Positions 22,310 to 23,117 of a stretch of 64,000 nucleotides of DNA are shown here, piece after piece. This DNA is from Betaproteobacteria bacterium (GTDB lineage Bacteria; Pseudomonadota; Gammaproteobacteria; Burkholderiales; Burkholderiaceae_D): assembly GCA_025362735.1 (NCBI GenBank), contig JANYFL010000062.1:62001-126000 (forward strand), given 5' to 3'. The notes under the pieces were generated by a model. The model did no database searches and was not told where the DNA came from. It was given only the letters and a program-made list of their open reading frames with translations. The position numbers and the translations under genes were made by a program. The first letter of the stretch is position 1; the number at the start of each line of letters is the position of its first letter.

Positions 22310-22325
22310 ACACTAGATGTAGTGC
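22310..22325. promoter_or_regulatory. NrdR box 1 upstream of nrdA
   Basis: The 16-bp sequence ACACTAGATGTAGTGC matches the NrdR operator consensus (acaCwAtATaTwGwgt) closely and is nearly palindromic. It pairs with box 2 at a start-to-start distance of 31 bp, three helical turns, the spacing known for NrdR repressor sites on ribonucleotide reductase promoters. Confidence 0.85.
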
Positions 22326-22340
22326 ATAAATTGCAACTCA

Positions 22341-22356
22341 CCACTAATTCTAGTGG
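22341..22356. promoter_or_regulatory. NrdR box 2 upstream of nrdA
   Basis: The sequence CCACTAATTCTAGTGG is a perfect 16-bp palindrome matching the CTA...TAG core of NrdR boxes, 31 bp from box 1. Together they predict repression of nrdA (and perhaps nrdB) by ATP/dATP-bound NrdR. Confidence 0.8.
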
Positions 22357-22384
22357 TCTGAGCGATGCGACGCAAGCGCTTATT

Positions 22385-22482
22385 CAATATTTATTTGTGG
22401 TTTTTTTAATTATTTTTTTATGCGGGATTTATGCACAGATCATGCACAAATCGTGCACAGCCCATCCACAGACTCATCCACA
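22385..22482. promoter_or_regulatory. AT-rich tract plus phased array of five DnaA-box-like 9-mers
   Basis: Five NNNTSCACA 9-mers begin at 22429, 22440, 22451, 22462 and 22474. The first (TTATGCACA) fits TTWTNCACA fully; TCATGCACA and TCATCCACA differ by one base; TCGTGCACA and CCATCCACA differ by two. All point the same way at 11-12 bp steps, that is, on one face of the helix. A 40-bp tract of almost only A and T (22385-22420) lies next to them. DnaA regulates nrdAB in E. coli, so DnaA control of nrdA is the simplest reading; iteron-like binding by another protein is possible. The rest of 22124-22514 holds the NrdR boxes and the leader and no gene. Confidence 0.6.
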
Positions 22483-22514: not shown

Positions 22515-23117
22515 TCAAACAAGGAAAGGCGTGTCGATCTGTGATGGAAGAAAAGAACGGTATTGGGGCCAGTCGAAATACGGGCCCGGATCGGTTTTGC
22601 GGTCCGGCGCAATGTCGCTGTGCCCCACAACAGCGCGAACCGGGTAAGTCTCGGCCAAAGCGCGAGTCAGTATTGCCAAAGTCTGATACTGGGAAATTTC
22701 AAAAGCCTGGGTATCACTACCTTCAAGTTCGATGCCAATCGAAAAATCATTGCAACGCTCACGTCCCTGAAAGCATGAAAAGCCTGCATGCCAGGCGCGG
22801 TCATCGCAGGATACAAACTGGATCAACCTGCCATTACGACGAATCAGAAAATGGGCCGAGACGCGCACATCGCGAATCGTTTCAAAATAAGGATGTGCAT
22901 CCCAATCCAGCGTATTGGTAAAAAACTGTTCGATGGCATTGGTCGAAAAATCATCGGGCGGCAAGCTGATGTTGTGAATCACCAGCAAATCGGGACGCAT
23001 GCCTTCAGGACGCGCATCGAAGTTGGGCGAAGCGCAATGCCTTGCGCCACTCAACCAGCCACCCTGCCAACCGTTCTGCCACAGTGGCTCACTGTCTACT
23101 TGACCGCCAACGCCCAT
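22515..23117 (-). CDS. ampD: 1,6-anhydro-N-acetylmuramyl-L-alanine amidase AmpD
   Basis: A cytoplasmic zinc amidase of peptidoglycan recycling that cleaves the peptide from anhydroMurNAc. The zinc ligands are His48 (VIHNIS), His166 and Asp176 (GHSDIAPDRKTDPGP), and the catalytic-region Glu130 is in GIELEG. At 200 residues it has the usual AmpD length and no signal peptide. Its ATG overlaps the pilR stop by one base (TAATG), so it is coupled to pilSR. By removing anhydromuropeptides the family limits AmpR-type beta-lactamase induction; no ampC or ampR is seen here. Confidence 0.94.
   Translation of the reverse strand: MGVGGQVDSEPLWQNGWQGGWLSGARHCASPNFDARPEGMRPDLLVIHNISLPPDDFSTNAIEQFFTNTLDWDAHPYFETIRDVRVSAHFLIRRNGRLIQFVSCDDRAWHAGFSCFQGRERCNDFSIGIELEGSDTQAFEISQYQTLAILTRALAETYPVRAVVGHSDIAPDRKTDPGPYFDWPQYRSFLPSQIDTPFLV

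Follow-up and report, generated by a model that had tools for sequence, protein, structure and literature searches.

In E. coli, DnaA can activate or repress nrdAB depending on its level and bound nucleotide, and a review counts three DnaA boxes in all at this operon and describes DnaA control of ribonucleotide reductase (RNR) genes as proposed in B. subtilis and C. crescentus (PMC8203912). According to a ChIP-seq study, E. coli DnaA binds preferentially to boxes paired at a spacing of 2-3 bp, at purH one base added to the 3-bp spacer strongly lowers DnaA binding, and this double-box spacing rule mirrors that of the low-affinity pairs of oriC (PMC11317965). RNR promoters regulated by NrdR are described as carrying a pair of 16-bp palindromes with 15-16 bp between them (PMC12176259). 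At E. coli nrdA one closely spaced pair, TTATCCACA-AAG-TTATGCACT, lies in sense orientation 142 bp above the nrdA start. Cell-cycle regulation of E. coli nrd also reportedly needs an AT-rich sequence upstream, going by the title of Sun et al. 1994. The principle of DnaA control of nrdAB is already known from E. coli, and most of what is known about how dNTP supply is matched to replication comes from that organism, where control rests on two or three boxes. For organisms other than E. coli we found no description of phased DnaA arrays at nrdA in literature titles and abstract openings, in a search covering few of the subscription journals.

The window analysed here, the whole 64-kb stretch of DNA, carries such an array between ampD and a conserved nrdA promoter. 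It comprises five DnaA-box-like 9-mers, all on the forward strand and so reading antisense to nrdA, which start at 22429, 22440, 22451, 22462 and 22474 (steps of 11, 11, 11 and 12 bp) and depart from TTWTNCACA at 0, 1, 2, 2 and 1 positions, respectively. Direct reading and rescoring thus bear out the initial annotation, which had reported these same-strand sites with their positions and steps, a tally of one full match, two sites with one mismatch and two with two, and an adjoining AT-rich tract. The features of the locus are as follows, box scores (PWM) being from a matrix built solely from 26 E. coli ChIP-seq DnaA sites (table of PMC11317965).

19166-22123, reverse strand: nrdA, class I ribonucleotide reductase large subunit with ATP-cone (PF02867, E 1.1e-190; PF03477; PF00317)
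22310-22325, reverse strand: NrdR box 2, GCACTACATCTAGTGT, 31 bp from box 1 with a 15-bp linker
22321-22329, reverse strand: extra DnaA-like 9-mer TTATGCACT, sense to nrdA, overlapping NrdR box 2
22341-22356, reverse strand: NrdR box 1, CCACTAGAATTAGTGG, containing the -10
22347-22352, reverse strand: predicted -10, TAGAAT, within NrdR box 1, with a 17-bp spacer to the -35
22370-22375, reverse strand: predicted -35 of the nrdA promoter, TTGCGT, read from the sequence, with a conserved TTG
22380-22421, no strand: AT-rich tract between array and -35, 84% A/T over 22380-22424, not seen in the array-bearing relatives compared by eye
22429-22437, forward strand: DnaA box 1, TTATGCACA, full consensus, closest to the promoter, PWM 12.8
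22440-22448, forward strand: DnaA-like box 2, TCATGCACA, PWM 7.2
22451-22459, forward strand: DnaA-like box 3, TCGTGCACA, weak, PWM 3.5
22462-22470, forward strand: DnaA-like box 4, CCATCCACA, weak, PWM 6.2
22474-22482, forward strand: DnaA-like box 5, TCATCCACA, PWM 8.9
22515-23117, reverse strand: ampD, upstream neighbour of nrdA (PF01510, E 2.7e-33)

The start of nrdA is likely 22123 rather than 22306, where the longest open reading frame has its ATG, because three relatives (G010, G034 and G020) align from residue 1. This would place the array 306-359 bp upstream of the start codon, 53 bp above the predicted -35 and about 89-142 bp above an inferred transcription start near 22340. The boxes (22429-22482) lie within the promoter region of nrdA (promoter 22347-22375) and, as in DnaA-regulated nrdAB promoters of the E. 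coli type, are on one strand and 2-3 bp apart. From the array toward nrdA follow the AT-rich tract, the -35, the -10 and the two NrdR boxes. A scan with the sigma-70 consensus detected no promoter at nrdA, and the promoter call rests on conservation: of 200 nrdA upstreams, 178 have a TTG 16-18 bp above the -10, and in 184 the -10 itself is TAGAAT, TACAAT or TATACT. The NrdR boxes, located with a search string that we take to represent the NrdR motif, form two palindromes (22310-22325 and 22341-22356) with a 15-bp linker, and a pair, with the 15-16 bp linker described in PMC12176259, is present in 200/204 nrdA upstreams. Promoter and NrdR pair had both escaped the initial annotation. The overlap of TTATGCACT with NrdR box 2 was considered as a composite DnaA/NrdR site and dropped, as enrichment in relatives is slight (for TTAT beside NrdR box 2, a mean of 1.50 matches vs 1.26 expected, with at least 3 matches in 23/200 loci).

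Chance does not account for the array. Dinucleotide shuffling of the 703-bp upstream of the window's own nrdA never produced five CACA chained at 11/12 bp (20,000 shuffles), nor four (5,000 shuffles). With the E. coli matrix the array scores 23.6, the highest null score in 4,080 shuffles being 14.7. By the same matrix three of the five boxes are weak, with scores of 3.5-7.2, which counts against reading the array as one for DnaA. The consensus 9-mer by itself is unremarkable, being found once in the 64-kb window vs 4.1 expected, and the genome has 118 full TTWTNCACA matches vs 89 for the reversed control. The phased core TNCACA-N5-TNCACA-N5-TNCACA, however, occurs at this locus only in the genome (3,010,911 bases, 93.6% complete; reversed control 0), as does a looser 11/12-bp triple pattern.

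Among the nine genomes closest in nrdA, this one counted in, eight carry a phased array, in all of them antisense and upstream of the NrdR boxes. Chains of three to five CACA with 11/12-bp steps, none of them reproduced in 2,000 shuffles, are found in L085, L145, L086, L146, L090 and L147; L088 and L089 pass by the matrix and fail the CACA-only test, and L087, which has no array, counts against the DnaA reading. Judged by eye, the sequence around the array, AT tract included, differs among the eight. Across the family the triple-phased pattern is present in 49 of 145 genomes, with 87 matches vs 44 for the reversed control. As this is about a twofold excess, the pattern alone is not diagnostic; its excess at nrdA is. 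The 87 matches, merged by hand, fall into 68 places, six of them within 700 bp upstream of nrdA (G000, G010, G074, G008, G097 and G073).

A broader survey drew on 222 nrdA upstreams from titled genome records, mostly Burkholderiales going by their titles, and from genomes of the window's own family and order. Of these, 204 were kept after 18 near-duplicates sharing more than half of their 12-mers were dropped; the family contributed from 140 genomes with an nrdA match, leaving out same-genus repeats (G146, G159), contig-edge loci (e.g. G109) and weak matches. The 99.9% null limit by matrix is exceeded in 27/204 of these Burkholderiales-type upstreams (0.2 expected), counts that are not independent events since 11 of the 27 are titled Paraburkholderia or Burkholderia. 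By mismatch counting, at least three same-strand boxes at 10-13 bp occur in 24/204 upstreams vs 1 of 4,080 dinucleotide shuffles. The initial annotation had named a lack of conserved 11-bp phasing in relatives, together with absence of DnaA binding in vitro, as refuting its reading; on the first point, phased arrays do recur upstream of nrdA in relatives. Upstream of ffh, none of 30 loci from relatives passes the limit vs 6/30 upstream of nrdA; the ffh loci are from the 30 of 60 genomes that yielded a locus, a set that overlaps the nrdA relatives without being identical to them, and its null of 600 shuffles, like the 1,000 used for the class set described below, puts the 99.9% limit at or close to the null maximum. 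Among the titled records, one metagenome-assembled genome under the name Chitinophaga pinensis (L048) has an nrdA close to the Burkholderiales ones, 58% identical to the window's, and is probably misnamed.

The spacing of the boxes is specific to 11/12 bp. In the 204 loci, pairs on one strand are commonest at distances of 11 bp (18 loci) and 12 bp (23 loci), with further peaks at the multiples 22-24 and 33-36 bp, vs one locus each at 11 and 12 bp for opposite-strand pairs, which are otherwise scattered, reaching 8 loci at 37 bp. Steps of 11,12 recover 27 loci, the overlapping choices 10,11 and 12,13 recover 15 each, and those from 13,14 to 19,20 recover 0-2. In chains of at least three, TTTT is found in 12/204 loci and CACA in 11/204, the TTTT count being that expected of T-runs.

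Arrays are not confined to this order. In a class set of 50 nrdA upstreams from 50 further families (L260-L309; from 62 class genomes with a match, leaving out the window's own genome and 11 weak or contig-edge matches), 26 exceed the 99.9% limit, 18 with three to six sites and 8 with pairs only. That 177/204 Burkholderiales-type and 24/50 class upstreams fall below this strict limit counts against the DnaA reading. Orientation is uniform among the 26 significant arrays of other orders, every one being sense to nrdA; of the 27 in the Burkholderiales-type set, 20 are antisense and 7 sense. Position within the 27 is variable, with 5 upstream of the NrdR pair and 22 downstream, and this too counts against a DnaA array. 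In 19 of the 22 the array begins no more than 5 bp from where NrdR box 2 ends, in some cases overlapping that box, at offsets of -5, -3, 0, +4 and +5 (L024, L026, L040, L041, L046, L051, L053, L054, L057, L061, L063, L060, L112, L177, L180, L182, L255, L256 and L258), hinting at shared or competing binding of DnaA and NrdR. It is possible, if a little short of an even bet, that DnaA control of nrdAB by phased arrays is ancestral in the class (GTDB Gammaproteobacteria), with the sense orientation fixed outside Burkholderiales, and that in the window's lineage the array was rebuilt longer, weaker, antisense and above the promoter, a steep multi-site DnaA-ATP threshold replacing a two-/three-site switch.

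What binds the array, and to what end, can be read in more than one way. Another regulator with a TGTG-type half-site might be the true ligand and the likeness to DnaA boxes secondary: the core most often shared by the near kin is CACA/TGTG repeated at 11 bp, the 5' halves being weak, and boxes 2-5 deviate from the consensus in its first three positions. We regard this as improbable, given that full consensus boxes (TTATGCACA, TTATCCACA) occur in arrays of Paraburkholderia and of other orders at the same 11/12 step and the same gene. Moreover, none of 200 permuted motifs reaches the 24 loci observed; four gave 16, 16, 12 and 6, and the top-scoring ones look like shifted forms of the repeat. 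If DnaA is the ligand, the array could mainly titrate it or change its nucleotide state, the neighbourhood of nrdA being incidental. Sites of the datA/DARS type combine DnaA boxes, an IHF site and an effect on the DnaA-ATP level. The uniqueness of the triple-phased core in the genome would fit such a role, and box pairs 2-3 bp apart are reported as bound also at E. coli datA and DARS (PMC11317965). Recurrence at the nrdA promoters of many genera and families is, however, not what a free titration site would display, and five mostly weak sites would probably hold few DnaA molecules. A titration effect is not needed to explain the array, and we consider this account unlikely, though less so than that of another regulator.

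Least credible of all, and very improbable, is a secondary unwinding site or replication start at which DnaA on the array would open the adjoining AT tract, the origin-like role raised in the initial annotation. The layout does resemble described origins (PMC8287927): the tract is among the most AT-rich of the window (4 of 63,955 45-bp windows, itself included, are equal or richer), and a few GC-containing bases, GCGGGA, stand between it and box 1. In the basal unwinding system as outlined in the same source, at least three DnaA-trios, TAG being commonest, come after the boxes at a distance of up to about 16 bp (PMC8287927). By eye, A-rich triplets follow the first box here, trivially so in an A-rich tract, and none is TAG. 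The tract is also missing from the array-keeping relatives compared by eye, it sits where a UP-element-like sequence above the -35 would, and the arrays recur at nrdA promoters, so that the unwinding proposal is not supported. The genome's own dnaA region (G000:C13 47500-52729; L163, L003) has three boxes above PWM 9.5, at C13 50015, 51831 and 51955, and no chain of boxes was found upstream of dnaA; with few strong boxes and no chain there, the likely origin region looks less like an origin in its layout than the array at nrdA does. For the same reason, and because the genome is in 71 contigs, the origin is not placed well; GC skew is shallow over the 64 kb.

We therefore favour, at a probability of roughly 80%, a cooperative DnaA-binding regulatory element of the nrdAB promoter that couples transcription to DnaA-ATP alongside the NrdR pair. 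The sites, their spacing, the promoter, the NrdR boxes and the recurrence at nrdA are read directly from the DNA, and from them DnaA binding, its dependence on ATP and an effect on transcription, with its direction, are predicted. The DnaA control that the initial annotation had proposed at nrdA, with binding as a prediction, is well supported by spacing, motif, gene context and recurrence in relatives. DnaA would nucleate at the sole consensus box (22429) and then fill the four weaker boxes head to tail, cooperatively across the 2-3 bp spacers, as suggested by the 2-3 bp preference in E. coli, the two-way control of nrdAB and the genome's own DnaA, whose DNA-binding domain resembles that of E. 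coli DnaA (1j1v, E 1.5e-32). Such cooperative filling would make occupancy rise steeply with DnaA-ATP, and occupancy would tune nrdAB transcription to the replication cycle from beyond the -35, while the NrdR pair over the promoter would repress nrdAB at high dATP. Activation at moderate DnaA is slightly favoured over repression because the array does not overlap the promoter.

The array resembles those of Paraburkholderia nrdA in that its boxes repeat in tandem on one strand with 11/12-bp steps, read antisense to nrdA and stand near an NrdR pair. Eighteen loci have Paraburkholderia or Burkholderia in their titles, and 14 of them carry 3-7 boxes on the downstream side of the NrdR pair, within what is presumed to be the transcribed leader, mostly at 12-bp steps and with near-consensus sites, whereas the window's array lies upstream of the pair; the other four of the 18 (L025, L047, L072 and L084) have no such array. 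In Paraburkholderia polaris (L052, among the near-duplicates set aside above) seven DnaA-like boxes at exact 12-bp steps lie about 389-308 bp above the nrdA start, four of them TTATGCACT, which is also box two of the pair at E. coli nrdA. Like the low-affinity arrays of E. coli oriC, the array has closely spaced sites favouring cooperative binding; unlike oriC, it has no conserved unwinding element and is not at a known origin, and a promoter lies alongside. With the nrdAB promoter of E. coli K-12 it shares the gene, the motif class, the 2-3 bp spacer and the NrdR boxes at the promoter, as these are described in PMC11317965 and PMC8203912. It differs in copy number (five vs two or three), orientation and position: the E. 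coli pair is in sense orientation directly beside the -35 (by eye), whereas here five boxes stand antisense, 53 bp above it. A recurrent, lineage-specific rebuilding of copy number, orientation and position would offer natural variants for relating the number and direction of DnaA sites to the nrdAB response, for a control known chiefly from the two or three boxes of E. coli.
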